64,000 bases of DNA from Clostridia bacterium. Lineage in GTDB: Bacteria; Bacillota; Clostridia; UBA1212. Below the pieces are notes generated by a model. The model had not been told where the DNA came from. It saw only the letters and a list, made by a program, of their open reading frames with translations, and did not search any database. Position 1 is the stretch's first letter. Every line of letters starts with the position of its first letter. Below are positions 3,225-35,273 of the stretch, piece by piece. Made by a program: the position numbers and the translations under genes. The DNA is taken from positions 1-64,000 of the forward strand of contig JAFTXP010000013.1 in assembly GCA_017461545.1 (NCBI GenBank), read 5' to 3'.

Positions 3225-3226
3225 TG

Positions 3227-3255
3227 TTGACATATTTAAAATGTTTGTGTATAAT
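3227..3255 (+). promoter_or_regulatory. Sigma-A promoter of tRNA-Val
   Basis: A consensus -35 TTGACA (3227-3232) and -10 TATAAT (3250-3255) are separated by 17 bases. It begins two bases after the htrA stop codon, and the tRNA starts 18 bases downstream of the -10 box. Confidence 0.9.
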
Positions 3256-3272
3256 GCTGACGATTTCTTTAT

Positions 3273-3345
3273 GGGCTGTTAGCTCAGCTGGTAGAGCATC
3301 TGCTTGACGTGCAGAGGGTCAGGGATTCGAGTTCCTTACAGCCCA
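3273..3345 (+). tRNA. tRNA-Val (anticodon GAC)
   Basis: A full cloverleaf: acceptor GGGCTGT pairs with ACAGCCC, the D arm is GCTC/GAGC, the anticodon stem TCTGC/GCAGA encloses the loop TTGACGT (anticodon GAC, Val), and a T arm follows. The discriminator is A. The 3' CCA is not encoded. Confidence 0.96.
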
Positions 3346-3353
3346 TTTACAAG

Positions 3354-3400
3354 AAGCCGTTGGCTGCGATTTACAAAACGCGGTCGACGGCTTTTTGTTT
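3354..3400 (+). terminator. Intrinsic terminator of tRNA-Val
   Basis: A 15-bp stem (3354-3368 with 3379-3393, three G-U pairs) has a 10-base loop and is followed by TTTGTTT. Confidence 0.85.
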
Positions 3401-3462
3401 GACGAATATAGCCTAACGTTCTATAATACATTCGTGTATGTCTTTTTGTGAGGTGATACTGT

Positions 3463-6396: not shown

Positions 6397-7406
6397 TCTG
6401 CAAGTTCGTTTCTGATGTACTCAAGCTCGAGAAGTTTTGCTTTAACTTCTTCGACACCGAGCAATTCCGTGTTGTTTGAGTTAAACTCGGTAAGGTTTGA
6501 ACGCTTCACATCGCCCTTAACAACATATTTGTCGTAGTTAAGATCTCTGGCATCGGCGGGTACTCTGTAAAACTTCCCGCAGTCAATTGAGTTTGCGCAT
6601 TCTTCGTTCGTAAGAAGTGTTTCGTACATTTTTTCTCCGTGTCTGATACCGATAACTTTAATTTCGTTATCCGCATGGAAAAGTTCTTTTACAGCCTGCG
6701 CCAATACCTCTATGGTGCACGCAGGTGCTTTCTGAACCATAATATCGCCCGTTTCGGCGTTTTCAAAGGCGTAGAGGACTAATTCAACAGCTTCTTCGAG
6801 ACTCATGATAAAACGTGTCATTTTAGGCTCTGTAACGGTAAGCGGTTTACCCATCTTTATCTGGTCAATGAAAAGAGGAATGACTGAACCTCTTGAACAC
6901 ATAACATTACCGTAACGCGTTCCGCAAATAAGTGTTTTATCAGCCGGAACTGTCTTTGACTTTGCAACAAAGACTTTCTCCATCATAGCCTTGCTTGTAC
7001 CCATGGCATTTACCGGGTAGGCCGCCTTGTCGGTCGAGAGACATATAACTTTCTTTACACCTGCGTCAATCGCTGCTGTCAAAACATTTTCGGTGCCGAG
7101 AACATTGGTCTTGACAGCCTCGATAGGGAAGAATTCACAACTCGGAACCTGTTTGAGCGCCGCCGCATGAAATACATAATCAACGCCGTGCATAGCATTG
7201 CGGACACTCTGAATATCTCTGACATCTCCGAGGTAATATTTTATCTTATCGTTCTGATAAGCATGTCTCATATCATCCTGCTTTTTTTCGTCACGGGAGA
7301 ATATACGTATCTCCTTTATATCTGTATTCAAAAATCTATCAAGAACCGCGCCGCCGAATGAACCGGTGCCTCCTGTTATCAATAATGTCTTTCCGTCAAA
7401 GTTCAT
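6381..7406 (-). CDS. capE: CapE/FnlA-type UDP-GlcNAc 4,6-dehydratase/5-epimerase
   Basis: An extended short-chain dehydrogenase. Homologues convert UDP-GlcNAc to the 4-keto-6-deoxy L-talo intermediate, the first step toward UDP-L-FucNAc. Visible features are the NAD-binding GGTGSFG (12-18), FSRDEKKQDDMR, HAAALKQVPSCEFFP and LSTDKAAYPVNAMGTSK. The usual catalytic Tyr is Met135 (MGTSK, with Lys139), as in CapE. The C terminus (LEYIRNEL) also fits CapE. It is 341 residues long and complete. The next two enzymes of the FucNAc route (CapF and CapG types) are not in the window. It sits two bases after the WbuB-like gene. Confidence 0.92.
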   Translation of the reverse strand: MNFDGKTLLITGGTGSFGGAVLDRFLNTDIKEIRIFSRDEKKQDDMRHAYQNDKIKYYLGDVRDIQSVRNAMHGVDYVFHAAALKQVPSCEFFPIEAVKTNVLGTENVLTAAIDAGVKKVICLSTDKAAYPVNAMGTSKAMMEKVFVAKSKTVPADKTLICGTRYGNVMCSRGSVIPLFIDQIKMGKPLTVTEPKMTRFIMSLEEAVELVLYAFENAETGDIMVQKAPACTIEVLAQAVKELFHADNEIKVIGIRHGEKMYETLLTNEECANSIDCGKFYRVPADARDLNYDKYVVKGDVKRSNLTEFNSNNTELLGVEEVKAKLLELEYIRNELAEWENK

Positions 7407-7408
7407 GT

Positions 7409-8623
7409 TTATCCGATAACCTCCTCAAGAATATCCATGAGAAATTCTTTCCTGTAATTCTTTTCAAAATATGACAGCGAATTTTCTTTCATGGAATTTC
7501 TCTCGCTATCTTTCATATTATACATACTTATTGCGGTTTCCGCCAGTATTTTTGGATTTTCCGCGGGACAGCTCAATCCTGCGCCTGATTTTTTCACAAT
7601 TTCCGCGCCTTCGCCGCTGCAACTCGCTATTACGGGAATTCCGCACGCAAAGTACGACTGTATCTTAGCCGGCAATGTTATATTCAAAAGAGGCATATCC
7701 TTTAATATCAGAAGCGCGGCATCGCACACCGATAAATATTTGCAGACTTCCTCCGCCGGTTTTCTTCCGATGAAGAAAACATTTTTGTCGAGAACTCCAA
7801 GCTCCTCGGCCTTTTTTCGGATATTGGCCTCGTCGCGGCCGCCGCCCATAAAAATCCAGTTCATACCGGGATATTCTTTCTTCGTCAAGGCGGCGGCTTC
7901 TATAGCAGTTTCAAGCTTCTGCGCCTCTCCGAAATTTCCCGTATAAATAATATTAAATCCAGTTGGTATTTCTTCCTTAATACTGTCTTCTTCCGGTACT
8001 TTGACAGGCTTGTAAAAATCCTCCGCATACTGCGGCCAGAACATGACTTTATCGGAATCTATTCCTGCGTCGGTGATTGAGTTTTTAAATGACTCTGAAG
8101 AAATGAGTATTTTCTCTGATGCTTTGTATACTTTTTTTGTAAGATGCTTTATATAAGAGAATACGGGACCGCTTTTTATGCCTGTCATTTCAGCCAGACT
8201 TTCGGGCCACAAATCAAGGACATATGTATACATGGGAATTTTTTGTTTTTTTGAAACGGTGATTCCGGGGAATGCCATAAAAACAGGGGAAAGCTGATAT
8301 ACAAAAACACAGTCGAATTTTTCTGCCTTTGCAAGCTTTTTAGCCTTTTTACAACCTTTAAACCAGAATGAAAAATAATTGAGAATGAGCTGCTTTTTTG
8401 AGTTGCCTCTGGGGCATATGTCGGTATTGTACACCGTAACGCCGTTGTAATCGCGCGGAGTCTTGTAACACTCTTCGTATCCGTCAAAAACTACACCGGC
8501 GGGGTAGTTAGGCATACCCGTGAGAACGGAAACCTTATGACCTCGCTTTATAAGTTCGGTGCAAATATCGTTTATTCTGAATGATTCGGGATAAAAGTGC
8601 TGGCATACAACAAGAATATTCAC
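7409..8623 (-). CDS. WbuB-like glycosyltransferase family 4 protein
   Basis: A cytoplasmic GT-B enzyme of 404 residues. The N terminus (MNILVVCQHFYPESFRIND, then LTGMPNYPAG) is typical of the WbuB/WcaI-like group of GT4 enzymes. The GT4 donor site is in the C-terminal third (IYTGNFGEAQKLE; PAKIQSYFACGIPVIAS). WbuB proteins are annotated as L-fucosamine transferases in E. coli O antigens, which would suit the capE gene next door, but I infer this from context. The gene lies 20 bases after the phosphoglycosyl transferase gene, so the cluster reads as one operon. Confidence 0.88.
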   Translation of the reverse strand: MNILVVCQHFYPESFRINDICTELIKRGHKVSVLTGMPNYPAGVVFDGYEECYKTPRDYNGVTVYNTDICPRGNSKKQLILNYFSFWFKGCKKAKKLAKAEKFDCVFVYQLSPVFMAFPGITVSKKQKIPMYTYVLDLWPESLAEMTGIKSGPVFSYIKHLTKKVYKASEKILISSESFKNSITDAGIDSDKVMFWPQYAEDFYKPVKVPEEDSIKEEIPTGFNIIYTGNFGEAQKLETAIEAAALTKKEYPGMNWIFMGGGRDEANIRKKAEELGVLDKNVFFIGRKPAEEVCKYLSVCDAALLILKDMPLLNITLPAKIQSYFACGIPVIASCSGEGAEIVKKSGAGLSCPAENPKILAETAISMYNMKDSERNSMKENSLSYFEKNYRKEFLMDILEEVIG

Positions 8624-8643
8624 AGACAGCCTCCTGAAAAACT

Positions 8644-9261
8644 TTATTGTTTCTTATCGTTTTTGTTATCGTTACGCATGCCTTCGGTTATATTTCTTCC
8701 GGATATGATTGCTCCGAAAGAACCGAAAATAATTTTCAGGTCAAACAAAAGACTGCGTTTTTTTACATATTCGCCGTCCATCTTTGCTTTTACGGGGATA
8801 TCAACATCATCTCTGCCGTTTATCTGAGCCCATCCTGTAAGTCCCGGGCGAACTGAGTTTGCATTGTATTTGTCTCTTTCGTCTGCGAGATCTATCTGAT
8901 TGTAAAGCGCCGGTCTTGGTCCTATCAGCGACATGTCGCCTTTCAGAATATTTAAAAATTGCGGCAATTCGTCAATGCTTGTTCTTCTTATAAACTTGCC
9001 CACTTTAGTAATATACGCATCTGCATGCTGCAACTCGTGTGTAGGCATATCCGCAGGTGCTGTTGTAGTCATGGAACGGAATTTATATAAAATGAACTCC
9101 TTCCTGTCTTTTCCGAGTCTGCGCTGTGTAAAAAAAGCACTGCCCTTTGAGTCGCACTTGATAACTATTGCGACAATAAGCATTGGTAACCAAAATATAA
9201 GAAGAAATACAACAGAAATAACAATATCAAGAATGCGTTTAAAAATATCGTAAACTTTCAT
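8644..9261 (-). CDS. Undecaprenyl-phosphate phosphoglycosyl transferase (bacterial sugar transferase family)
   Basis: The monotopic enzyme that starts lipid-linked glycan assembly by moving a sugar-1-phosphate to undecaprenyl phosphate. It has one N-terminal re-entrant hydrophobic segment (about 10-34), then QRRLGKDRKEFILYKFRSM and the catalytic Asp-Glu pair in RRTSIDELPQF, followed by GDMSLIGPRP and RPGLTGWAQ. This is the short PglC/EpsL-like form. I chose the ATG at 9261 because MKVYDIFKRILD matches the family start; a GTG at 9288 or ATG at 9282 would add a few residues. It is the first gene of the minus-strand cluster. The sugar is not evident. Confidence 0.93.
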   Translation of the reverse strand: MKVYDIFKRILDIVISVVFLLIFWLPMLIVAIVIKCDSKGSAFFTQRRLGKDRKEFILYKFRSMTTTAPADMPTHELQHADAYITKVGKFIRRTSIDELPQFLNILKGDMSLIGPRPALYNQIDLADERDKYNANSVRPGLTGWAQINGRDDVDIPVKAKMDGEYVKKRSLLFDLKIIFGSFGAIISGRNITEGMRNDNKNDKKQ

Positions 9262-9371
9262 ATAAAATCTATCTTCTTTCATGCTCACAAATATACAAAA
9301 ATTTTACTATTATTCTATCCAAAAGTCAACGCCGCTGTGCATATTATCATTAAAATAAAGGTATTTTATTG

Positions 9372-9400
9372 TTGCGATTGAGGTGCCCTTGTGATAATAT
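9372..9400 (+). promoter_or_regulatory. Probable promoter of tRNA-Arg
   Basis: TTGCGA (9372-9377), a 17-base spacer and TAATAT (9395-9400). It lies 24 bases before the tRNA. Confidence 0.5.
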
Positions 9401-9423
9401 CTTTAAGCTGACATAAAATATTT

Positions 9424-9495
9424 GTCCCGGTGGTCCAATGGATACGATAACAGACTCCGACTCTGTTGATATGGGTTCGATTCCCGTCCGGGATG
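9424..9495 (+). tRNA. tRNA-Arg (anticodon CCG)
   Basis: Acceptor GTCCCGG pairs with CCGGGAT (first pair G-U). The anticodon stem ACAGA/TCTGT holds loop CTCCGAC, anticodon CCG. The T arm is ATGGG-TTCGATT-CCCGT and the discriminator is G. The CCA is not encoded. Confidence 0.95.
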
Positions 9496-9498
9496 TAT

Positions 9499-9534
9499 AA
9501 AAGAGGTCAAAATCTTTTGATTTTGACCTCTTTT
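9499..9534. terminator. Bidirectional terminator between tRNA-Arg and the yerC-like gene
   Basis: A perfect 16-bp stem (9499-9514 with 9519-9534) with a TTTT loop. It has A-runs on one side and T-runs on the other, so it can stop the tRNA transcript and the convergent gene. Confidence 0.9.
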
Positions 9535-9538
9535 GTGT

Positions 9539-9841
9539 CTAATTTTTATTTTTATCTTTTAGAACCAAGTCGTATCCGCCTGCGCCGTACTGGATGCATT
9601 TATTAACTCTCGCAATAGTGGCGGTGGAGGCGCCTGTCTTTGCTGCAATGGTGCTGAAAGTATTTCCCTCTTTGAGAAGTTTGGCAACCTCAAGACGCTG
9701 AGCAATTGAACATAACTCATTAATCGTGCAGACATCTTCGAAAAAACGGTAGCAGTCGTCTTTGCTGCTTAAAGAAAGTACTGCATCAAAAAAAGCTTCT
9801 GTTTCTTCAGTTTTTATCGCACTGTTTGCCAATTCTCTCAT
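9539..9841 (-). CDS. YerC/YecD family TrpR-related regulator
   Basis: A small helix-turn-helix protein of the TrpR-like YerC/YecD family (100 residues), probably a DNA-binding regulator of unknown targets. The family core is present: SKDDCYRFFEDVCTINELCSIAQRLEVAKLL, then GNTFSTIAAKTGASTATIARVNKCI, and the usual GxGGYD end. The frame extends to 9862, but the ATG at 9841 is preceded by GGAGG at eight bases, so the shorter start is right. It is a single gene, closed by the shared terminator with tRNA-Arg. Confidence 0.92.
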   Translation of the reverse strand: MRELANSAIKTEETEAFFDAVLSLSSKDDCYRFFEDVCTINELCSIAQRLEVAKLLKEGNTFSTIAAKTGASTATIARVNKCIQYGAGGYDLVLKDKNKN

Positions 9842-9939
9842 CTGATTATGTCCTCCATTCAAATGTAATCGTATTTTAACGCTTTATCTTGCTAAAGTCA
9901 AGCTTAACAAAGTTTTTTGCAAGAAGAAATTTTTGAAAA

Positions 9940-9946
9940 TGTCGAA
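9940..9946 (+). promoter_or_regulatory. Possible Spo0A box upstream of the Tad locus
   Basis: TGTCGAA matches the 0A-box consensus exactly and lies about 90 bases before the cpaF-like start. A 7-base site is expected several times by chance in a window this size, so this is only a candidate. Confidence 0.25.
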
Positions 9947-10032
9947 TTGTGTAAACTGACATCGAACTTAACAAATTGCAACGGCACTTCAGTGTTGTTA
10001 TTATTTTTTTACGACAGAAAGGGGGAGTATTA

Positions 10033-11175
10033 TTGACAAGAAATTATTTGGTTGACATGGTTAATCAGAAGCTTACACATTCTATCAGCTCAGAAGTTAT
10101 ATATTCAGATTCGGAGCTTCTGAAAATCATTGATGAGTGTATAGAAAATATTTCCGACCGTGCCCGGTTAAGTTATCACGAAAAATCAGAGATAAGGTTA
10201 TCTGTTTTTAATTTGCGCAGAAAGTTCGGAATTATTCAGCCTTTGTTGGATGACCCGGGTGTAAATGAAATAATGGTAAACGGCACAGATGCAATTTTTA
10301 TTGAAAAAGACGGAAAAATTGAGCAGACTTCTGTACGCTTTGAGAGTAAGGATGATTTGTTCGGTATTATACAATCTATGGCATCTTTTTCTAACAGAAG
10401 TATAAATGAGAGTTCACCGATTGTAGATGCACGTCTGGCAGACGGTTCGCGTATAAATGCTGTTTTAAATCCAACTGCTGTTAACGGTCCGGTTCTGACA
10501 ATAAGAAAATTTTCCGAAAGAACATTTACAATGGAGAATTTTATAGAATTCGAAACTGTTACGTATGACGAATCTGTTTTTTTGCAATGGGCTGTGGAGT
10601 CATCACTTAATATTTTTGTATCCGGCGGAACTTCCAGCGGAAAAACAACGTTTCTGAATGTCTTGTCCAAATATATACCTGAAAAAGATCGAATTATTGT
10701 TATCGAAGATTCTTCGGAACTGAGATTGTGTCAGCCGAATCTTGTCCGATTGGAAACACGCCCGCCGAATTCCGAGGGTAAAGGAGAAATCAGTATGCGT
10801 AAGCTGATAAAAACCGCACTGCGCATGCGTCCTGACCGAATAATTGTCGGAGAGGTCAGAGACGAGAGCGCGCTGGACATGATTCAGGCGCTATGTACCG
10901 GTCATGACGGTTCCATGTCTACTGCCCATGCTAACTCGGCAGAAGATGTATTAATCAGACTTGAGACAATGGCTTTGTGGGAAGGCCATGTAAGTTCTGA
11001 GTCTATAAGAAGACAAATATCATCCGGAGTAGACCTTGTGGTGCATTTGGAAAGGGACAGAGATATGAGACGAAGAGTAAAAGAGATTGTACAGGTATGT
11101 GATTATGAGAGTGGCGGCATTAAGGTCAATCCGGTTTTTTCAGACGGAAAGAAAATCGGCTCGTATATAACATAA
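10033..11175 (+). CDS. cpaF: Tad/Flp pilus assembly ATPase (CpaF/TadA)
   Basis: The cytoplasmic secretion ATPase that drives Flp pilus assembly. Numbering from the chosen TTG, Walker A is GGTSSGKTT (about 198-206), and [17 protein letters not shown] with the His box STAHANS follows. The N-terminal CpaF region has GVNEIMVNG and [10 protein letters not shown]. An upstream ATG at 9976 is open, but the run AAAGGGGG at 10018-10025 fits the TTG at 10033, and the extra 19 residues do not resemble the family. First gene of a five-gene run of pilus genes. Confidence 0.95.
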
Positions 11176-11187
11176 AGGAGGAATAAG

Positions 11188-11952
11188 GTGAGAAAAGGAG
11201 GAAATTTTGTAAAAACATATGAGAAGTACTCGTCGGGGATATTTCCCATAATTCTGTTTACAGTTACTTATTTTTCCGTCGTATTTCTATATTTTTATTT
11301 AATACTGAACAGTATCATGCTTTGTGCGGTAATCACGTCTGTTATTTATCCGTATGCGTTCTTTGCATTTCGTAAATATATGACAGTTCAGAAAATAAAG
11401 AAACTGGAGATACAATTCGGCGAGGCTCTTCGATTTATATCATCTTCAGTAGCGGCAGGTGTAACCGTTGAGAACAGTTTTTATGAGTTTGCCTCAAAGG
11501 CGAATACGTACAATAAAAGTGATTTGTCTTTGATAGCAAAGGAATTCAGAATAATAACAAACAGTATGGATTTGCATGAGAACGCAGCAGATGCTTTCAG
11601 AGACTTTGCAGAGAGAAGCGGAAGCAGTGATATAAAAATTTTCTCATTGGCACTTAGTCAGATTTATTCTTCCGGCGGCGATATAGTCGGTTTGCTTAGA
11701 AATACAGTTTCATCGCTTCGGATAAAAAGAGAAACGGAAGATGAAATAAGTCTGATATTGGCAGGGCCGAAGTACAATCACAGAATAATCACCGTGATGC
11801 CTGTGTTGATAATATTTCTGATGAAATTCATCTCGCCTGACTATATGTCGGCGGTGTATGAGGGCCCGGGGCGTATTGTGGGTGTTATATCTGCGATATT
11901 GATTGTTGTTGCATATATCATCGGAAGCAGGCTGTCAGATATACAGATGTAA
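11188..11952 (+). CDS. tadB: Tad pilus inner-membrane platform protein TadB
   Basis: One of the two GspF-like membrane platform proteins of the Tad system. Two hydrophobic segments near the N terminus (about 15-70) precede a T2SF domain (FGEALRFISSSVAAGVTVENSF...). Two C-terminal helices begin around RIITVMPVLIIFLMKF. It starts at GTG 11188 after AAGGAGG, 12 bases downstream of cpaF. Length (254) is short for TadB because the N-terminal part found in proteobacterial forms is absent, as is common in Clostridia. Confidence 0.88.
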   Translation: MRKGGNFVKTYEKYSSGIFPIILFTVTYFSVVFLYFYLILNSIMLCAVITSVIYPYAFFAFRKYMTVQKIKKLEIQFGEALRFISSSVAAGVTVENSFYEFASKANTYNKSDLSLIAKEFRIITNSMDLHENAADAFRDFAERSGSSDIKIFSLALSQIYSSGGDIVGLLRNTVSSLRIKRETEDEISLILAGPKYNHRIITVMPVLIIFLMKFISPDYMSAVYEGPGRIVGVISAILIVVAYIIGSRLSDIQM

Positions 11953-22775: not shown

Positions 22776-23618
22776 ATGAAAAAGATTGTTTCATTGATAC
22801 TTGCAATAGGTTTGCTTACTTCAATGGGCATTTTGTCTGTATCAGCAGATACAGGGGAACCGGTGTGGTCATATTATCCGAATTATGATTATATAGGTGA
22901 CGGAAGAGATTCATGGGCTATAACTGCTGACGGAAACGGCAGCGCTGTCCGTTCTGCTGATGATTCTTATGTGACATTCACGGCGAATGCCGCTCCGGAG
23001 GCTCATTTTTATGTAGGATGGGCTGCAGGAGATCTGACTGCATCAATGATTCCGACAATCGATGCATCATCGGGCAATGTTTTTGTTCTAAAATGCAGAT
23101 TATCAGATTCAAGCAAAGTCGGCGAAGAGGGAGATATTATAGGGCAGCTTGTTGCCGCTTCAGGTGCGTGTGTCGTGAACTTTGATTATGATGCCACAAC
23201 CGAATGGCAATATGTTCTTATAGATTGTGCAAATCCTACAGTGGGCAGCTGGACCGGTACAATAAATTTTCTGAGACTTGACTATGCTAATTCCGTATCG
23301 GTAAATTCTGCGAACCTTGAAGGGTTCTCTGTAGATATTGAATCACTTGAACTTTTTACAGACAGAATGGCAGCTCAGTCATATATTGATTCTATGACAG
23401 AAAATACAGACGATAATAACAATATTGAAGGCGAAAATAACGGTAATGCTGAAAATGATAATGCGGATAACACCGGAAACGGTAATACGGATAATATAGA
23501 GAGTGACAATATAGATAATATCGAAACAGATGATTCTGTTTTTTCAGCATCAATAATCTTGGTTATTTTATCATGTACGGTTGCCGTTCTTATTAAAAAA
23601 AGAACCTATAAATTTTAG
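22776..23618 (+). CDS. Secreted, C-terminally anchored surface protein (paralogue 1)
   Basis: 280 residues. A signal peptide (1-24, ending VSADTG) and a compact domain rich in aromatic residues (about 28-205: PVWSYYPNYDYIGDG, AHFYVGWAAGDL, WTGTINFLRLDY) are followed by an Asn/Asp/Gly-rich linker, a membrane helix (SIILVILSCTVAVLI) and KKR. The domain resembles a beta-sandwich such as a carbohydrate-binding module, but I cannot assign a family. It is a clear paralogue of the next gene. AGGAGG precedes the ATG. It is probably exposed on the cell surface. Confidence 0.85.
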   Translation: MKKIVSLILAIGLLTSMGILSVSADTGEPVWSYYPNYDYIGDGRDSWAITADGNGSAVRSADDSYVTFTANAAPEAHFYVGWAAGDLTASMIPTIDASSGNVFVLKCRLSDSSKVGEEGDIIGQLVAASGACVVNFDYDATTEWQYVLIDCANPTVGSWTGTINFLRLDYANSVSVNSANLEGFSVDIESLELFTDRMAAQSYIDSMTENTDDNNNIEGENNGNAENDNADNTGNGNTDNIESDNIDNIETDDSVFSASIILVILSCTVAVLIKKRTYKF

Positions 23619-23667
23619 TGAAGCGTAAGCTGGAACCCTATGATATAAGAGAGCGGTTAATTAATGA

Positions 23668-23701
23668 ATAATCCCTGTCTGTAAATGCGGATGGGGATTA
23701 T
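23668..23701 (+). terminator. Possible terminator hairpin after paralogue 1
   Basis: ATAATCCC (23668-23675) pairs with GGGATTAT (23694-23701) around an 18-base loop. No T-run follows, so termination activity is uncertain. Confidence 0.35.
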
Positions 23702-23744
23702 CCAATATGATTTATAAATATTTTTCGCCTGACAATAATAATAT

Positions 23745-23773
23745 TTGACAGTTTAAAAAACATAATGTAAAAT
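23745..23773 (+). promoter_or_regulatory. Sigma-A promoter of surface protein paralogue 2
   Basis: TTGACA (23745-23750), 17 bases, TAAAAT (23768-23773). The leader is about 60 bases and contains a TATAAGT/ACTTATA hairpin and a 20-bp A/T palindrome just before the ribosome site. Confidence 0.85.
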
Positions 23774-23838
23774 ATCAGCATCTATAAGTTTGTTATGACT
23801 TATAAAAAAATAATATTATTTTTTAGGAGGAAACAAAA

Positions 23839-24837
23839 ATGAAAAAAATTGTTGCTTTGATTATTGCTATCGCAGTAGTCGCATCAATGGGTGTCATGTC
23901 AGTTTCTGCAGCAGAAGATCCGGTATGGCAGTACTATCCGAATGATATTTACATCGATAAGCCGGATTTGACAACAACTCCCCCGCAGGATGAGTCATGG
24001 AGTGCGACAGGTGCTACAGGTGAAAAATCTGATGATGATAATTATGTGAGATTCACTGCTCAAAAGGTTACAGAAGCGTATTTCTATACAGGATGGGCTT
24101 CCGGAGACTTGACTTCTTCTCAGGTTTCTACAATATACGCTGACGCAGGTAATACATTTGTTATCAAATGCAGAATTCCTGATGCTTCATATGTTGGTCC
24201 TGAAGGTCCGCTTGTAGGCGAACTTCTTGCAGGTGATAACGGATTGATTACTGCTCATTACACATATACACAGACAACTGACTGGCAGTATGTAGTTGTA
24301 GATATGACTTCTGCACCTCTCGGCGCAATGTGGTCAGGAGAGATTAACTGGTTCCGTGTTGACTTTGTAAATGCTAATGCGATAACTGTAGATAACATCA
24401 ATGCTATCGAGGGATTCCAGTTTGATTTGGAATATATTAAGCTCTTCTCAAATATTGATGCAGCTAATGCATATGTAGCTGAGGCAGAAGCTGGCGGTGA
24501 CGAAACAGGATCTGACAATACAGGATCTGATAACACAGGTTCTGATAACACAGGATCTGATAACACAGGTTCAGATAACACAGGATCTGACAATACAGGA
24601 TCTGATAACACAGGTTCTGACAACACAGGTGCCGGTAACACAGGATCTGAGAACACAGGATCTGATAGCACAGGATCTGAGAACACAGGTTCTGAGAACA
24701 CAGGATCTGAGAACACAGGATCTGATAACACAGGTTCTGACAACGCAGAAACAGATGATGCTACAGTAGCAGCATTTGTAATGCTCATCGCTATGGCATG
24801 TGCAGCTGCTGTTGTTCTCAAAAAGAGAGCATTCTGA
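23839..24837 (+). CDS. Secreted, C-terminally anchored surface protein with GSDNT repeats (paralogue 2)
   Basis: 332 residues with the same plan as its upstream paralogue: signal peptide (1-24), an aromatic-rich domain (about 27-215; PVWQYYPND, AYFYTGWASGDL, WSGEINWFRVDF), a repeat linker, a C-terminal membrane helix (VAAFVMLIAMACAAAVVL) and KKR. The linker is 16 pentapeptides of the form GS[DE]NT. It probably holds the domain away from the cell wall, and the number of repeats is likely to vary between strains. Codon use is more biased than in its neighbours, which with the strong promoter suggests high expression. The ligand is unknown. Confidence 0.88.
   Translation: MKKIVALIIAIAVVASMGVMSVSAAEDPVWQYYPNDIYIDKPDLTTTPPQDESWSATGATGEKSDDDNYVRFTAQKVTEAYFYTGWASGDLTSSQVSTIYADAGNTFVIKCRIPDASYVGPEGPLVGELLAGDNGLITAHYTYTQTTDWQYVVVDMTSAPLGAMWSGEINWFRVDFVNANAITVDNINAIEGFQFDLEYIKLFSNIDAANAYVAEAEAGGDETGSDNTGSDNTGSDNTGSDNTGSDNTGSDNTGSDNTGSDNTGAGNTGSENTGSDSTGSENTGSENTGSENTGSDNTGSDNAETDDATVAAFVMLIAMACAAAVVLKKRAF
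24508..24747 (+). repeat. 15-bp tandem repeat array coding for (GSDNT)n
   Basis: Sixteen in-frame 15-bp units. The first eight code GSDNT exactly; later ones vary (GAGNT, GSENT, GSDST, GSDNA). Third-base differences show the units are not all recent copies. Confidence 0.95.
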
Positions 24838-27391: not shown

Positions 27392-27407
27392 AGGACGGGT
27401 GACAGTT

Positions 27408-29207
27408 TTGAATAAAAGCATCTATATAAGATTTGCATTGATATTGTTAAGCATATTCACGGTATTTACAGCGGTGCCGTGCGCTTCCGAAACAGTTGAC
27501 ACGGCAGCAGCCGGGGAATGTTTACAACCGGAATATATCGAACATGTATCATGTCTTCCGTTCGAGAATATTGAGGCTGTTCCGGAAGAAATTACCGAAG
27601 ATACTGACGGGTATTCTGAATCCGGGATATCTTTGCCGCTCGCGCTGAACAGTTCGGAGTCAACTATTTTGACGGACAAAGAAAAAGCTGTGTGTCAGGC
27701 TATTTATGAAGGTCTTGTCGCGCTTTCTTCGAAAGTTACATTGCCGTATACCGTTACAACAGATGAATTGTCATCTCTTTATAAAAGAATTATTTATTCA
27801 TCACCCGAGTTGTTTTATGTCAATTCGTCTTACAGTTATTCGTATATGACCGTGAGCGGCGTTAAATATGTAGTAGCCGTTTCTCCTAAATATAAAATGA
27901 CCTCTGATGAAGTTGCTTCAGCAAGGACGTATATAGATGCCGAGCTGCAGAAATTGCTTGCGCTTTGCGATGCTTCATGGACGGACATGGAGAAGGTTTT
28001 ATTTTACCACGACTATTTAGTTTTAAATTTCTGCTACGATGAGAGATTGTACACCCAAGGGTCTTCTTATGTTAATTATGATATATACAATTTCCTTAAA
28101 GAGAAAACCGGCGTATGCATGGCATATCAGCTTCTTATGATGGCTTTGCTTGATGAGGTAGGAGTGGAGAACAGTTATGCAGAAAACGGCGGTCACATCT
28201 GGAATGTTGTTAAGATAGACGGTAATTGGTATCATGTCGATGCCACATGGGATGATCCGATTGTAAACAGTACCGATTACAACGGCTTTTACGGACTTGC
28301 CGAACATGTATCTTTCATGAAGAGCGATACATATTTTACGGAAAACGGATACGATGCATGGAACTGTGATTATACCTGCACAGATACAACATATGATGCA
28401 AATACAGTTCTGACTGATACTATTTCTGCGATAATCATAGAGGATGAGGGCTGGTATTATGTCGATAAATCAACCGCTTATCTGATGTGCTATGACATTG
28501 ACACCGACACAAGTACGAGCATTAAAAGAATATCGCCCTCACTGAGCACATGCTATTCAAGTCTTTACAAGTACGGAGATTGTCTGATATATAACGGGGC
28601 ATATTCGGTTTTTGCATATAATACGGTCACGGGAGCTTCGTATACTCTGAACACAAGCAGTGTTACATCTTCTTACATATTGGGATTTACAGTAGAAGGT
28701 GAAACGCTTGACTACATAACCGGAACCACTTTTGCGGAGTCTTCATGGTCACATACGGAAGTTTTGCTGTGTGATACTGCAATAGGTCGGTTAGCATTGA
28801 TTTCCGATTCGATACTTTGGATTGATGATATAAATAAGTTGCTTGAGAATGTAACCGGTGCGGCAAACACATTAGCTGATATTAAAGCGTCTCTGATGAA
28901 CAGTACTTCAAATATAACCGTGAAAGACTCGCAGGGCGCAGAAATTACCGCAAGCAGCTCACTTGTCGGTACGGGATGTCAGATTATACTTACAATAAAC
29001 GGGTCTGTCAAAGACACTCTTACAATCGTTGTGGACTGTGACACAGACGGCGACGGAGCTGTTACTGTTGCAGATGCTGCTGCTGCCATGAGTGATGTTT
29101 ACGGAACAGAAGCACTCATGGGAGTATACGGTCAGGCCGCCGATTTTGATGAAAACGAAGCAGTAACAATTATCGATGTAATGAACATTTTGAATAGTAT
29201 TGCATAA
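27408..29207 (+). CDS. Secreted transglutaminase-like protein with type I dockerin
   Basis: About 599 residues. A signal peptide (1-30) is followed by a transglutaminase-like (papain-fold) core with Cys237 (KTGVCMAYQ), His263 (NGGHIWNVV) and Asp278 (YHVDATWDDP), so the triad is intact. A beta-rich region follows. The C-terminal dockerin (about 545-599) has two calcium loops, DTDGDGAVTVADA and DFDENEAVTIIDV. Dockerins bind cohesins, so the enzyme would be held on a cellulosome-like scaffold or a surface cohesin. I chose TTG 27408; GTG 27399 lies within the ribosome site. Substrate unknown; it may be a protease or an acyl transferase. Confidence 0.92.
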   Translation: MNKSIYIRFALILLSIFTVFTAVPCASETVDTAAAGECLQPEYIEHVSCLPFENIEAVPEEITEDTDGYSESGISLPLALNSSESTILTDKEKAVCQAIYEGLVALSSKVTLPYTVTTDELSSLYKRIIYSSPELFYVNSSYSYSYMTVSGVKYVVAVSPKYKMTSDEVASARTYIDAELQKLLALCDASWTDMEKVLFYHDYLVLNFCYDERLYTQGSSYVNYDIYNFLKEKTGVCMAYQLLMMALLDEVGVENSYAENGGHIWNVVKIDGNWYHVDATWDDPIVNSTDYNGFYGLAEHVSFMKSDTYFTENGYDAWNCDYTCTDTTYDANTVLTDTISAIIIEDEGWYYVDKSTAYLMCYDIDTDTSTSIKRISPSLSTCYSSLYKYGDCLIYNGAYSVFAYNTVTGASYTLNTSSVTSSYILGFTVEGETLDYITGTTFAESSWSHTEVLLCDTAIGRLALISDSILWIDDINKLLENVTGAANTLADIKASLMNSTSNITVKDSQGAEITASSSLVGTGCQIILTINGSVKDTLTIVVDCDTDGDGAVTVADAAAAMSDVYGTEALMGVYGQAADFDENEAVTIIDVMNILNSIA

Positions 29208-29234
29208 GGTAAGATAAAAATGTAAATGTAAATC

Positions 29235-29271
29235 ACGGGGCGTCATTCTTGCCGGAATGACGCCCCGTTTT
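29235..29271. terminator. Terminator between the dockerin gene and the YetF-like gene
   Basis: ACGGGGCGTCATTC (29235-29248) pairs with GAATGACGCCCCGT (29255-29268), then TTTTG. It serves the dockerin gene and lies seven bases beyond the end of the convergent gene. Confidence 0.88.
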
Positions 29272-29277
29272 GCTGTT

Positions 29278-29985
29278 CTATTGAAACAGATCATTATCTG
29301 TCTTCACTTCAAACTTTTTATAGATGTTTAAATTTCCGGAACAGTCATATGTTGCAAGAAATATATCATTTTCAGAATTGATCTGATGTTTTTTCAGCTG
29401 TTTTAAAAGCCAATCTCTGTTATGTCCGACTGAGGCGAGATTTTTTTCTTTTATATTGCCGTCAATTATTACATTGGTGACAATATGTTCCTGATTTACC
29501 GACAGACTCAGATCATTGGGCGTGGCAGGCCGTTCGCCTGATTTGGGGAGAATGGACAGGGTGCCGTTTGACTCTAAAATTGCCGTTTCTATGCTTGCAA
29601 GATTAAAATAACCGTTTATTCTGCATCTCATCAAAAAGTCCGAAATATCAAGTTTTGACTTGCGAAAATTGTCTTTGTAGAGGATTCCCTTGTCGTATAA
29701 AACTACGGAACTGCCGCCGAAAAATTTCCTGAAAAAATCATTTTTTCTGCCGAGATAGCCGATGAGAAATGTTACTGCACCGTATATGATCATTGCAATA
29801 AGAGACTGCCACACGTCTCCTTCCAGAGACGTTGCCATTTCAGCCGCAATTGAGCCGATCGTTATACCGTTGATATATTCAAACATGTTGAGCTGCGACA
29901 TCTGTGTATTTCCGATTAACTTTGTCAAAAGAAAAAGTACGGCAAGTGAAAACACCGCCGACAGTATAATTTTTATTATAGACAT
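29278..29985 (-). CDS. DUF421/YetF-family membrane protein
   Basis: 235 residues with three N-terminal membrane helices (about 5-85) and the YetF soluble domain with FGGSSVVLYDKG, LMRCRINGYFNLASIETAILESNG and SILPKSG. Families of this type occur in spore formers and have been linked to the spore membrane and germinant-release machinery, but most members are uncharacterised. The frame opens at 30036; ATG 29985 has GAGG at ten bases, while the ATG nine bases earlier is too near it. It converges on the dockerin gene. Confidence 0.88.
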   Translation of the reverse strand: MSIIKIILSAVFSLAVLFLLTKLIGNTQMSQLNMFEYINGITIGSIAAEMATSLEGDVWQSLIAMIIYGAVTFLIGYLGRKNDFFRKFFGGSSVVLYDKGILYKDNFRKSKLDISDFLMRCRINGYFNLASIETAILESNGTLSILPKSGERPATPNDLSLSVNQEHIVTNVIIDGNIKEKNLASVGHNRDWLLKQLKKHQINSENDIFLATYDCSGNLNIYKKFEVKTDNDLFQ

Positions 29986-30045
29986 AAAAAGCATGCCTCT
30001 TTCTTTTATGAAATCAACATGCCTTATTATGTACAATAAATATTT

Positions 30046-30065
30046 TATTATTCAAAAGAATAATA
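30046..30065 (-). terminator. Possible AT-rich terminator of the surface operon
   Basis: TATTATTC-AAAA-GAATAATA hairpin directly after the minus-strand stop at 30075. Weak stem, so uncertain. Confidence 0.4.
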
Positions 30066-30074
30066 TTTCAGTTT

Positions 30075-32339
30075 TTAATTTTCCGGTTCTTCTTGTGAAG
30101 AAGTATCTTCGGATTTATCGCCGTCTGTGTTTTCCTCGGCTTCTTTCTTTTTAATCTTCTTAAGTGAGACAACAATGATTACCGCTACAATTACAGCTAC
30201 GGCGAGAGCTCCTATGCCGGCGAAGATAAGGATTTTGCCCCAGTTTGTAGATTTCTCTTCGGTATCGGTAGATACAGGAGCAGGAGTTGTTGTCACAGGT
30301 GCGTCAGGATCTGTTATATCTGCTTGCGGAACTGTATCTGCTTCTGCTGCCGGTGTATATGACATCATATCCGGATCAAAGGTTGCAGGGTCAGTCTTTA
30401 CTGCGTCATCTCCGTATTTTTTAGCAGTTTCTTCGTCGGGAGAAAGTGCAATACATGATATATAAATCTTGTCTTTTGCGGATGACTCCTCGAAATAGTC
30501 AAATCGCATACTGTTAAGCGTGCAATTTGTAGTTCCGCCTGTGGTCCGCCAAATATCTTTGTAGTCATTCAAGTTTATGATTTCTGTATGGTACTCGCCG
30601 TCACATTTAAGCTCTATCGGTATAGAGTATTCTTTTAATGCTTCAACTATTTTGCCGATGTAGAAATACATTCTTGTTGTGTAGCTGTCTTTAGAGTTTG
30701 ACTTTGGAACCATGTATGTATATGTGAGATAACTGTAATCGGTTGTCAGGATTCTTTCTGAATTAAGCGATGTTTTAATCACTAATTCACCTTCTAAATT
30801 ACTTTCTTCGCCAACCGTAGTTATTTTTGCAATGCCTTTCTCTGCAAATTCTATCATGCAGTTATCCAATCGTGTGAAGGCTCTCAGGTCATTTGTTGTA
30901 TCAAAATTTATGTGTGTGTAGTCTATGGTTTTTTTCCAGTTAAAATCATCCTTGTGCTCTTTGAATGTTTCACGCATTGTGCTGACATCGCCGGTGCTGA
31001 TTATATAACTGTATTCAAACGGTTCAAAGTTTCTCATTGTGTTTGTTATGAGCGGCGCGACATAGTTTGTAGGAAAAGCTTTTGGGTCTTTTGATCCGTC
31101 ATATTCACATCTTCCTGCGAGCATTATTTCGACTTGCGGTGTATAAAGACCGATTCCGTAGCCCTTCTCGCTGCTCGTCCATGCACACCAAGTCTCTGTA
31201 TTTGATTTATCCAGGGTGGTGTAACAATCATCAGCGGTATCGCGTTCTCCCCAAAACGGCAAATCTTTTTTCACTGTAAGTTCGTCATCTGTCCAGGGTT
31301 TTTTTCCGTTATAAAATGTGAACGTATCAAGGTAACTTATGGTGTAAAATGCAGGTAATTCCTGATGTCTGCCGGATTCTCCGTGATCATAAGTTGAAAA
31401 ATCGACGAATCTGTTGTCAACTTCTATGTAATCGTCATGCAATGTATATGTATTTTCCATATATGCGTATGTAGGTGTATTATACTGTGACCAGTCGAGC
31501 GGACGGCATTTTACGTAAATATAGTTTTCCTCAATGGTGAAATCCAATATTTTACTTTTATTGTTAAATTGGTCGCCGCCTTGTACCGGATTGTATCCCC
31601 AGGATGATCCCTGATAATTTCCGAGGACATACGGCTCTTTCATTGTGCCGTAATAGGACTGCTGAACCAAACGTCCTGTATCGTATGCATTGAGCATATT
31701 TGTGACAGTGTCATCGCCGTCAAGCTTATCTTCTATATAATTGACACCGCCGCCCCAGGCCATATATACACCGAGTTTGAAACGTTCGTTTTCAATATAT
31801 ACAGTATCGTTTACTGGCCTATAACCCATAGCTGTTTCAAATGAGTGAAGCTTAAAGGCAATACGGGTGCCCTCCTTTATAGGTTCGAATGTCAACTGAA
31901 GAGGTTTTAATCCTATAACATTGGATATAACTTTTGTGTCTACGGTAATAGTGTTGTCAATCAGCGATGTAAAGTCCGCCTCGTCACCTTTTTCCAGGTA
32001 GAAGTCCTCTGTATATATTGTGTCTGCCGTTTTGTAAGAGATTGTTCCCTTTACAACGTCGGAAGCTGTGTAGTTTATTGAAAACTTATTAAATTGTTTG
32101 TTTTTTGGCTCAACTATGTTGAAGACCAATTTGTCTTCTACAATGTAACTCCCGTCAGCCGTTGTTCCTATAAATCCCGACACATTGGTTTTTAACCCTG
32201 CACCGTTAAATTGAATGTCTGTTTCTTCCGCTTTTACCGCTTGTGCGGAAAAAAGACATTGGAAAATCATGGCGAAAGTAACAAAAAGAATTGCTGCTTT
32301 TTTCAGCACATGATTAGATGAAATAAAGCTGTTTTTCAT
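30075..32339 (-). CDS. Large surface-anchored protein, unknown aromatic-rich core (paralogue B)
   Basis: 754 residues: a signal peptide (1-36), an N-terminal beta domain, then a core (about 175-470) with motifs WGGGVNYIEDK, YDTGRLVQQSYYG, WGYNPVQGG, VKCRPLDW, RHQELPAFYTISY and YGIGLYTP. A second beta-sandwich-like domain (about 480-640, ending in IYISCIALSPDEE), a Thr/Pro linker, a membrane helix and an acidic tail follow. The conserved Trp/Tyr/His residues suggest carbohydrate binding or cleavage; I do not recognise the family. It lies 42 bases after its paralogue and is probably cotranscribed with it. Confidence 0.85.
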   Translation of the reverse strand: MKNSFISSNHVLKKAAILFVTFAMIFQCLFSAQAVKAEETDIQFNGAGLKTNVSGFIGTTADGSYIVEDKLVFNIVEPKNKQFNKFSINYTASDVVKGTISYKTADTIYTEDFYLEKGDEADFTSLIDNTITVDTKVISNVIGLKPLQLTFEPIKEGTRIAFKLHSFETAMGYRPVNDTVYIENERFKLGVYMAWGGGVNYIEDKLDGDDTVTNMLNAYDTGRLVQQSYYGTMKEPYVLGNYQGSSWGYNPVQGGDQFNNKSKILDFTIEENYIYVKCRPLDWSQYNTPTYAYMENTYTLHDDYIEVDNRFVDFSTYDHGESGRHQELPAFYTISYLDTFTFYNGKKPWTDDELTVKKDLPFWGERDTADDCYTTLDKSNTETWCAWTSSEKGYGIGLYTPQVEIMLAGRCEYDGSKDPKAFPTNYVAPLITNTMRNFEPFEYSYIISTGDVSTMRETFKEHKDDFNWKKTIDYTHINFDTTNDLRAFTRLDNCMIEFAEKGIAKITTVGEESNLEGELVIKTSLNSERILTTDYSYLTYTYMVPKSNSKDSYTTRMYFYIGKIVEALKEYSIPIELKCDGEYHTEIINLNDYKDIWRTTGGTTNCTLNSMRFDYFEESSAKDKIYISCIALSPDEETAKKYGDDAVKTDPATFDPDMMSYTPAAEADTVPQADITDPDAPVTTTPAPVSTDTEEKSTNWGKILIFAGIGALAVAVIVAVIIVVSLKKIKKKEAEENTDGDKSEDTSSQEEPEN

Positions 32340-32381
32340 TTTTTACTCCTTTTATATATGGTAAATTAATTAAAAACTATT

Positions 32382-35273
32382 TTATTTTTTGCGTTTTTTC
32401 TTTAAGAACAGCAAAAGAAAAATGATACCGCCGATTACAATAATTGTGATAATTAAGATAACAGTCAAAATGACCTTGATGTTTTTCTTGTTGCCTTTAT
32501 TGCTATCGGAGCTTCTGTTGTCCGTTTTGGTTGTGTTTTCTTCTGTATCGGCAGTGGGTGCAGAAGCTGACTCTGAGTCGTTGTTTTCATCTCCGGCAGT
32601 ATGCGATGCGCTGCTTTCGGGTAATTCCGATTCAGTTATTTCCGGTGTGGTTGTTGACGGCGTTTCTGTTTCATGTATCGGTGATGTATTTACAAACACC
32701 ACTGTACCGAGTTTATCTGTTATAAAAACAAGTTTGCCGTCTGTATATGATGAATTGACTGTTGTAAGTTTTCCATCCTGTGATGCCATGTAAGCCATTG
32801 TTTTATTGTTATTATATCCCTCGGGCAATGTCACTGTGAGCATTATAGGACTGTTGAGTGTTGCGTTAATACTCATATTTGTAATTATATATCGTATTTC
32901 AGTACCGAAACATGCTGTTATATTTTTGTCGATTTCCGCAGTGTCACTTGCTTTTGCGACTGTGATTTTTGTATTGTCATCAAAAGTGTTGTTGCCTTTG
33001 TCAGTTATTTCTACCAATACAGAACTGTCCTCGCCGTGCGAAGGTGTGGTACTCGGTGAAAGTGTCACAGATGTACCTGCCGTGCCTGAGGGGTTTACCT
33101 TGTTGGAAGAGCCTGCTGTATTCAAACCGCCGGCTGTGCTTGAGGAACTGCCTGTGCCGGAAGACGGCGATAGAGTTATACCGCCTGTATAAAGCGGTGG
33201 AGAAGATGTTGTCGTAGAATTTGCCGAGCTTGTCGGTTTTGATGTAGCTGTGGAAGACGGCGTTGCAGATGCTGTCGGTGTTGCTGCCGTACTGCTTGTA
33301 GATGCAACCGCATAATTATTTGCCGCAGCTTTTGTTTTAGCAAGCGATATTTCAGATACGTAAATTATATCGCCGGCATTAGGTTCATCCATAAGATCAA
33401 ACCGTAATTTGTTTATTTTTTTGCCGCTCGAAGGCCATAAATTTGTATAGCCGGATAAATTTATAACCAAAGAATGGTATTTTCCGTCTCTTATAAGCTT
33501 TTTTGTAAGTGACTTGCCTGCTGATGCATAGGTATCATCTCCGACACATATAAAAATTTCCATATTATAAGAAGAATAGTAATTTCCGGTCGGTATCATA
33601 TAAGTGAATACGAGATATTTATATTCATTTGTGTACAGTACTTCAGAATTCATTGCGTAGTTTACATATGCATAGACGTCAAAATCCCAGTTATTTCCCG
33701 CAGAACTGCTTGTAACGAATTTTGCTGAACCGTTTGATGTTGTAGCAACTGCATCGTTAATATCCGATAAAGCATTGAGCTGGTATGAATCATCAAATGT
33801 AAGTCTTGTATAATCGATTTCGCCTGATTCTACATCAACATCAACGTCTAAATTAAGCGCCTGTGCTTTGAAAACTTTTCTGATTGTGTCCACATTGCCT
33901 GCTGTAATGTAGTAAGTATATGAATACGGAGTATAGTTTTGCATAGTATAGGTTTTAAGCGGTGCTACGTAATTTGTTGCATCGTTTGTAGGGCTTTTTG
34001 AACCGTTATATGCATTTCTTCCTGCAAGGAGAATAGAGACATCAGGGGTGTAAAGCCCTATGCCGTATCCGGTTTCTTTTGAAGTCCAGGAGCACCATGT
34101 TTCTGTATTGCCGCTTTTTATATCGGTATAACATTCTGATCTGTTTGCCTGGTCACCCCAAAAACCGAGATTCCCTTTTGTTGTAAGAGTATCGTCTGTC
34201 CATGGTTTGGAACCGTTGTAGAAAGTGAACTTATCAAAATAGCTGATTGTATAGAATGCCGGAAGTTCCTGGTGTCTGGGTGAACCGTGATTATATCCGG
34301 AAAAATCAATAAATCTGTTGTCAACAGTTATATGTGTACTTTCTAACGTATATTTGTTTTCCATATATGATAGAGAATAAATGCCTTCTTTTGCCCAGTC
34401 ACGGGGGCGGCACTTTACATAAATGTATGTGTCTGTAACGATACAGTCTATAAGTTTGCTTTTTTCTCCGTACAGATTTCCGCCCTGAACAGGATTGTAT
34501 CCCCATGTTGTTCCGTTATAGTCGCCGCAGTCATACGGGTAGCTTGATGTGCCGTAATACGACTGCTGAACCAATCTGCCGGTATCGTGCTTATTAAGCA
34601 TATTACCTATTGTAGAATCTCCGTCTTTTTTGTCTTCTATGTAATTCAGACCGCCGCCCCAGATGAGACAGCAACCGAGTTTGAAACGGCTGTTTTCCAG
34701 ATATACGGTATCTGATGTATAAACTTCTGCCACAGTTGTTGTTATGGAATTGATTTTTAATGTGGCAGTCGATGCCGAAAGAGGAGTAAAGACAATCTTA
34801 GATATTTTTGCAGCCTTTTTATTAATCAGATAATTATCCGTGAATGAAGTAAACACACCTGCTGAGGTATTTTTTTCGAGGAAAAATTCTTCGCTTTTTG
34901 TGGAAGATGATTCAGTATAGTAAATAACGCCTTTAACAGCCTGGTTGGAATAATAATTTATACTGAATTTGTTGAAATTTGTGTTCGCAGGGCTTGTAAA
35001 AGTATATGTAAGTGTTCCCGAAAACTTATATCTTCCGGATGTGATTGAAGAATAGCCCGATACTGCAACAGATGCTGAACTGCCGTTAAGAGGGACTGTT
35101 ACTGAAGAGGAAACTGCAGAAGTCGGATACGGTGTAGAGGTAGCTGCGAAAATTTCTCCCGGTACAAAGGTAAATTGGCATAGAAAAATAATCAGCATGA
35201 TTATTGCTGAAAATCTGACTAAAAATTTATTGCGCATACGCATAAATGTAAAGATACTTTGTACGTTTTTCAT
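32382..35273 (-). CDS. Large surface-anchored protein, unknown aromatic-rich core (paralogue A)
   Basis: 963 residues with the same plan as the downstream gene: signal peptide (1-43), beta domain, then a core with WGGGLNYIEDK, HDTGRLVQQSYYG, WGYNPVQGG, VKCRPRDW, RHQELPAFYTISY and YGIGLYTP. More than half of the core residues appear identical by eye. It differs in having a long Ser/Thr/Pro linker (SSTAATPTASATPSSTATS) and an extra beta domain (ITDKGNNTFDDNTKITVAK) before the C-terminal helix and KKKRKK. AGGGGAGA precedes the ATG. First gene of the two-gene operon. A polysaccharide-active enzyme or adhesin is the likeliest role, by inference. Confidence 0.85.
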   Translation of the reverse strand: MKNVQSIFTFMRMRNKFLVRFSAIIMLIIFLCQFTFVPGEIFAATSTPYPTSAVSSSVTVPLNGSSASVAVSGYSSITSGRYKFSGTLTYTFTSPANTNFNKFSINYYSNQAVKGVIYYTESSSTKSEEFFLEKNTSAGVFTSFTDNYLINKKAAKISKIVFTPLSASTATLKINSITTTVAEVYTSDTVYLENSRFKLGCCLIWGGGLNYIEDKKDGDSTIGNMLNKHDTGRLVQQSYYGTSSYPYDCGDYNGTTWGYNPVQGGNLYGEKSKLIDCIVTDTYIYVKCRPRDWAKEGIYSLSYMENKYTLESTHITVDNRFIDFSGYNHGSPRHQELPAFYTISYFDKFTFYNGSKPWTDDTLTTKGNLGFWGDQANRSECYTDIKSGNTETWCSWTSKETGYGIGLYTPDVSILLAGRNAYNGSKSPTNDATNYVAPLKTYTMQNYTPYSYTYYITAGNVDTIRKVFKAQALNLDVDVDVESGEIDYTRLTFDDSYQLNALSDINDAVATTSNGSAKFVTSSSAGNNWDFDVYAYVNYAMNSEVLYTNEYKYLVFTYMIPTGNYYSSYNMEIFICVGDDTYASAGKSLTKKLIRDGKYHSLVINLSGYTNLWPSSGKKINKLRFDLMDEPNAGDIIYVSEISLAKTKAAANNYAVASTSSTAATPTASATPSSTATSKPTSSANSTTTSSPPLYTGGITLSPSSGTGSSSSTAGGLNTAGSSNKVNPSGTAGTSVTLSPSTTPSHGEDSSVLVEITDKGNNTFDDNTKITVAKASDTAEIDKNITACFGTEIRYIITNMSINATLNSPIMLTVTLPEGYNNNKTMAYMASQDGKLTTVNSSYTDGKLVFITDKLGTVVFVNTSPIHETETPSTTTPEITESELPESSASHTAGDENNDSESASAPTADTEENTTKTDNRSSDSNKGNKKNIKVILTVILIITIIVIGGIIFLLLFLKKKRKK

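Follow-up and report, generated by a model that had tools for sequence, protein, structure and literature searches.

Which kind of protein is formed by the core shared by two large surface proteins that a Clostridia bacterium encodes side by side, and what could this core do at the cell surface? The initial annotation could place it in no named family and guessed at a carbohydrate-active fold. The locus lies within a stretch of 64,000 nucleotides (hereafter the window, contig C5 of genome G000). The two genes are called P2 and P1, in the order in which they would be transcribed.

The P2-P1 gene pair and the design of its products

Both open reading frames are on the minus strand, exactly where they had been reported. 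P2 (32382-35273) encodes 963 residues and P1 (30075-32339) encodes 754; the two products are paralogues sharing 285 of 659 aligned residues (43% identity, BLASTP E-value of 0.0), and other homologues of P1 are found. The genes are separated by 42 nucleotides (32340-32381, minus strand), which carry AAAAGGAG ahead of the ATG of P1 and for which no terminator-like site is listed. The two-gene operon proposed earlier is thus plausible from the layout of the sequence, and the two genes may be co-transcribed. A gene encoding a YetF/DUF421 membrane protein, identified by its family match (29278-30036, minus strand), starts 38 nucleotides downstream of P1 and may belong, as a third member, to the transcript of the pair; no YetF/DUF421 gene was found among those read at the syntenic place of a sister genome of the genus.

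The gene for the 754-residue protein is also present on another contig of the same genome, C11. The end of this contig repeats positions 28578 to 33153 of the window at 100% identity over the 4576 bases compared. Because the gene and its flanks are identical throughout, a biological duplication was rejected and the copy looks like assembly redundancy. The sister genome has a single core gene at the syntenic place (L083), and the pairing of P1 with P2 is a feature of the present genome. Tandem core genes were found in this genome and in one other, G002. The tree joins the two G002 copies with each other (support 93/84), which points to a duplication of their own.

Both products begin with a signal-like segment. 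In P1, the signal peptide is followed by an N-terminal beta-sandwich (residues 37-170, approximate boundary; 31830-32231, minus strand), the core (residues 174-474; 30918-31820, minus strand), a C-terminal module (residues 475-640, approximate boundary; 30420-30917, minus strand), a linker and a C-terminal transmembrane helix (residues ~702-727; 30159-30236, minus strand) with a Lys-rich segment after it. P2 has the same order of modules, with a long Ser/Thr/Pro-rich stretch added ahead of its helix (residues ~934-957; 32403-32474, minus strand), which is followed by a KKKRKK end; its core is the equivalent region of 291 residues (33849-34721, minus strand). Hydropathy reaches 3.14 near the C-terminus of P1 and 3.36 near that of P2. 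Neither protein contains an LPxTG motif, the only sortase signal that was looked for, and neither matches Dockerin_1 at E-values up to 1. P1 and P2 are therefore predicted, from their sequences, to be exported and anchored by a transmembrane helix, in agreement with the anchoring by a C-terminal helix rather than a sortase motif that had been proposed.

The N-terminal beta-sandwich of P1 is absent from the family member L006, and the P1 ortholog of the sister genome (L001/L008) retains the transmembrane helix without the C-terminal module. No Pfam name was found for this last module, which is shared by two proteins in which the core profile detects no core: L007, a CotH protein of the present genome, and L028, a NAGPA phosphodiester glycosidase.

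Other genes of the window may be mentioned here. The gene at 27399-29207 encodes a transglutaminase-like protein with a dockerin-like C-terminal segment (Dockerin_1 below its cut-off), and a similar gene adjoins the P1 ortholog in the sister genome. Two neighbouring proteins encoded at 22776-24837 are alike in design and apparently exported; the second carries a long run of GSDNTGSDN-type repeats ahead of a C-terminal hydrophobic helix.

A conserved core with a predicted mutarotase-like fold

The existence of a shared core of about 300 residues is borne out by comparison of the two proteins. All four of the motifs reported earlier (among them WGGG.NYIEDK and WGYNPVQGG) are found in both, the cores are 62% identical, and their Smith-Waterman score is 1006, the highest value among 100 shuffles being 62. 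The core was also said to be rich in Trp, Tyr and His. This holds for Trp (2.7 and 2.4% in the P1 and P2 cores, against 0.6% in 18 other genes of the window) and for Tyr (9.3 and 10.3%, against 3.7%). His, however, is at the level of the other genes (1.3 and 1.4%, against 1.6%).

Conservation was assessed on 41 distinct cores (36 cellular and 5 viral), obtained from 100 domain matches by removing duplicates and matches spanning less than 230 of the 288 profile positions; in this set, the alignment of the core from the viral contig L092 is unsure over its later half. In P1 numbering, G196, D220, G222, R223, G255, W283 and Q326 are invariant across the 41 cores, and E295 and E382 are kept in 40. 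D220, G222 and R223 belong to a D-x-G-R motif (31671-31682, minus strand). No His is found among the residues kept in at least 39 of the 41 cores. E327 is kept in 38; it is unaligned in L092 and replaced by Lys in the pair L005/L066, and because of this replacement the alignment rules it out as an obligate catalyst.

Searches of sequence databases leave the core outside any named family. Among 27 cores compared with Pfam at E-values up to 1, only two unrelated, chance-level matches were obtained, each in a single member (DUF3601, 0.14; Atu4866, 0.46). NCBIfam gave nothing significant in the core of P1, P2 and four homologues, and no aldose-epimerase profile was matched in either of these two scans. 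PHROGs gave no core match for P1 and the protein of the viral contig L036, and phmmer or profile searches of PDB sequences gave E-values of 0.23 or worse in the core. Scanning the 27 members over their full length against Pfam produced single-member matches such as COR-B (0.0038) and CBM_6 (0.061), for which no positions are given; the matches of P1 and P2 to RIFIN, PRIMA1 and similar families were dismissed, since they are below cut-offs and fall in the linker and transmembrane tail. A search of the literature, whose reach ended short of the original papers on GH174 (see below), found no account of the core family, and a text search on three motif strings gave no match. By sequence, the family is unnamed in Pfam, NCBIfam, PHROG and PDB, and the profile search proposed as a check on its novelty found no characterised family.

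An AlphaFold2 model of P1 residues 37-631, built from six sequences, has a pLDDT of 57.6, with blocks of 79-91 over the first 40 residues, that is within the N-terminal beta-sandwich. A second model, restricted to the 301 residues of the core and built from eight sequences, reaches a pLDDT of 75.2 and a pTM of 0.79, with low confidence around D220-R223 (block mean of 53). Compared with known structures (VIA-align 2), this core model is closest to two GH174 enzymes: the endo-1,3-fucanase GH174A (8jd7_A; Z of 22.7, 272 aligned residues, 3.7 Å, 11% identity) and Fun174Sb in complex with a fucotetraose (9k1g_A; Z of 22.0, 267 aligned residues, 3.6 Å). The following entries are the PBCV-1 capsid protein (17.4), the polysaccharide lyase PL26 (16.9) and two mutarotases from B. 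subtilis (4bze and 3mwx, both 16.8), and the periplasmic domain of YidC is found at 14.2. With the longer and poorer model, the GH174 pair is again at the top, tied with a third entry (15.4, 15.4 and 14.5). Foldseek orders the matches of the core model differently: by E-value, an aldose-1-epimerase from E. coli (3nre) is first (4.3e-9) and 8jd7 fifth (3.0e-8), and by TM-score normalized to query length, 8jd7 (0.63) and 9k1g (0.60) are the highest among the 50 matches listed.

The high-ranking matches are mostly mutarotases and carbohydrate enzymes of the mutarotase-like fold. The core is thus predicted to be a galactose-mutarotase-like super-sandwich with a GH174-like fold, the GH174 fucanases being set apart at the top. 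The relation to mutarotase-like sandwiches and the carbohydrate-active character that the initial annotation suspected are supported at the level of the fold, on a predicted model. GalM and other aldose-1-epimerases, domains of GH65, GH38, GH94-type phosphorylases and GH2, and the lyases PL8, PL26 and PL33 match the model at Z of about 12-17; the core shares no sequence family found with them and has its own conserved set (DxGR / NPxQxG / W / QELP / TE).

The comparison with GH174, a recently established family, deserves more attention. The likeness extends over 272 of the 301 residues of a model with a pLDDT of 75 and is about 5 Z units above the next entry, whereas no relation in sequence is detectable: a search of PDB sequences at E-values up to 10, with profiles spanning the entire core or one of two motif regions, retrieves no chain of a GH174 enzyme. 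CAZy families are sequence-based. We would class the core as a new sequence family, one that belongs by its predicted structure to a known type of carbohydrate-active proteins. In a review, the residues D119, E120 and E218 are listed for Fun174A (PMC11943901). If a plain offset is applied (residue 1 of the model being residue 68 of the chain), which ignores gaps and assumes that both numberings are equal, D119/E120 fall near residue D47 of the model (P1 D220) and E218 near E154 (P1 E327). This correspondence is suggestive only.

Relatives of the core in Clostridia and viruses

Relatives of the core were found in 21 of 31 genomes examined from the host's order, in seven of the 12 genera covered. 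Across the phylum, the single positive genome among 398 drawn is that of the window itself. A class-wide draw of 291 genomes gave 13 with any match, and full-length alignment located core regions only within the same order; in G130, G155 and G300, the matches fall outside the core. These figures come from a cellular sampling that is wide only within this phylum.

The cores are found in proteins of diverse designs. An N-terminal hydrophobic segment precedes 27 of the 36 cellular cores and a lipobox-like pattern is found for 19, while the other nine lack the segment and are apparently cytosolic; these labels are crude, "cytosolic" meaning an N-terminal hydropathy below 1.5 and neither label being the output of a signal-peptide predictor. 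A C-terminal transmembrane helix is restricted to three cores, those of P1, P2 and the G001 ortholog. Among 27 family members scanned with Pfam, P1 and P2 included, two carry a type I dockerin. Dockerins were found in 26 and cohesins in 22 of the 29 genomes of the order that were searched, and the genome of the window has seven dockerin and four cohesin matches. The family recalls the cellulosome-type proteins of Clostridia through its two dockerin-bearing members and through a host genome with dockerin and cohesin matches, unlike P1 and P2 themselves, which end with a transmembrane helix.

The neighbourhood of core genes was examined at 14 of 20 loci, chosen to avoid repeats, and covers 52 genes located at most two positions away from one of them (genes encoding more than 1800 residues being excluded). 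A CAZyme or an esterase is directly beside the core gene at four loci: an SASA carbohydrate esterase at about 15 nucleotides (L080), a GH123-like protein (L087), a GDSL esterase on the opposite strand (L088) and a GH78 rhamnosidase (L089). At the other ten, none was recognised among the nearest neighbours within the best 25 of the 95 families listed. One apparently cytosolic form (L072) is beside genes for an MFS_2 sugar transporter, a GDPD and an ADP-ribosylglycohydrolase, with a GH127 within 7 kb, and reading of the sequences reveals the same gene order in L073, L075 and L077. A conserved partner gene was looked for and rejected, as neighbours vary between groups of loci. The gene context modestly backs a carbohydrate role.

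The core is also encoded on four viral contigs (L036, L068, L091 and L092); tblastn searches of plasmids and of INPHARED phages gave nothing, and no relative was found when the viral collection was scanned with L006. On L036, a single protein (6789-11447) carries a GDSL-like domain (E-value of 3.6e-7, 31.3 bits against a Pfam cut-off of 32.9) with a core on either side, and the following gene has matches among the PHROGs for tail spikes, baseplates and structural virion proteins. Close relatives of this core are encoded on L068 (3931-7548) and L091 (5290-7356); L036 and L091 share one source number (2881966637). With its GDSL-like domain and its neighbour from a tail or virion family, the L036 gene resembles those of phage tail proteins with carbohydrate-active domains, from which it differs by the lack of any PHROG match in the core (searched with P1 and the L036 protein) and of any INPHARED match. 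Known tail enzymes are mostly beta-helical. The core tree is reliable for close groups only, the viral rows, L006/L079 and L027 being long or joined to long branches; no direction of transfer is therefore claimed.

On the fourth viral contig, L092 (12.6 kb), a large Asn/Thr-rich protein (2989-7776) combines a LamG-type domain with a very diverged core. The composition looks archaeal.

Possible functions of the core

The reading that we favour, and that seems to us somewhat probable, is that P1 and P2 are exported, membrane-anchored, glycan-cleaving enzymes of an unnamed family with a GH174-like fold, whose catalysis, residues, substrate and cleavage mode are all inferred. The core would be the catalytic domain and the flanking beta-sandwich modules would hold the substrate. 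A polysaccharide would lie across the open face of the sandwich, where conserved acids would perform endo-hydrolysis, the candidates being D220, E295 and E382, beside R223 and W283. As a weak guess, suggested by analogy because of the GH174 fold and of one adjacent GH78, the substrates might be glycans containing 6-deoxysugars. We counted in favour of an enzyme the fold topped by GH174, the conservation across 41 cores, the enrichment in Trp and Tyr, the dockerins and cohesins, the CAZyme and esterase neighbours, and the GDSL-like domain and tail setting of L036. Against it, we counted the lack of a significant sequence match to GH174 or any other catalytic family, the ten loci at which no CAZyme or esterase was recognised nearby, the Lys in place of E327 in L005/L066, an epimerase as the best Foldseek E-value, the low confidence at D220-R223 and the presence of the fold in the PBCV-1 capsid (17.4) and in the periplasmic domain of YidC (14.2), which are not known as enzymes.

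These last proteins make a serious rival, rather unlikely in our opinion, of the view that the core is a non-catalytic glycan-binding domain (adhesin or receptor-binding) of mutarotase-like fold, with P1 and P2 holding the cell onto polysaccharides of plant, mucosal or microbial origin. It keeps this standing because a similar fold is found in proteins not known as enzymes, such as the chlorovirus capsid protein, and because E327 is lost in the pair L005/L066. The transmembrane anchoring, the Ser/Thr/Pro-rich stretches and the richness in Trp and Tyr would fit a binder equally, as would a viral homologue with two cores in one chain, beside a tail-family gene. However, D220 and R223 are invariant in the 41 cores, E295 and E382 nearly so (40 of 41), and the closest folds are, by about 5 Z units, those of hydrolases; moreover, nine of the 36 cellular cores seem to be cytosolic, where an adhesin makes little sense.

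The same cytosolic forms, one of which adjoins an MFS_2 transporter, could instead point to small sugars or glycoconjugates as the substrates. The core would then be an exo-acting enzyme, a lyase, or a mutarotase or epimerase, and the exported forms would derive from cytosolic ones. This is quite improbable: aldose-1-epimerases and the lyases PL26, PL8 and PL33 are indeed among the structural matches, with 3nre giving the best Foldseek E-value, but the epimerases are about 6 Z units under GH174 (16.8 against 22.7), and 27 of the 36 cellular cores are preceded by an N-terminal hydrophobic segment. Furthermore, GalM-type mutarotases use a His, and none is among the highly conserved residues of the core. 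Least likely of all, and highly improbable, is a divergent branch of GH174 acting as an endo-alpha-1,3-L-fucanase on fucans, which the two top structural matches and the offset that brings D119/E120 and E218 of Fun174A (PMC11943901) near D220 and E327 would favour, but which is opposed by an identity of 11% with no signal from full-core or motif profiles, by the Lys at E327 in two of the 41 cores, by an offset that skips gaps and presumes agreeing numberings, and by sulfated marine fucan being presumably an unlikely main substrate for this organism.

The high conservation of the core, its frequency in one order of Clostridia and the lack of a significant match in the sequence databases searched make it a candidate new family active on polysaccharides. 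The structural link to GH174 points to specific residues and substrates for assay, and the copies on viral contigs hint that the domain may also serve as a glycan enzyme of tails. A broader and more tentative proposal, which may well go too far, is that of a new enzyme family at the CAZy level, with a GH174-like fold, exchanged among Clostridia (in cytosolic, lipoprotein, dockerin and transmembrane forms) and viruses of bacteria, perhaps also of archaea, where it would be a tail enzyme. If true, one family would link the breakdown of plant fibre with the penetration of glycans by viruses.

A last observation concerns the genes in which E327 of the QELP motif is replaced by Lys. The proteins concerned (L005, 1480-2718, and L066) form an orthologous, apparently cytosolic pair within the genus and are possibly pseudo-enzymes. 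At L071, the gene with this replacement is flanked by an NMT1-type ABC transporter and a flavodoxin-like gene.
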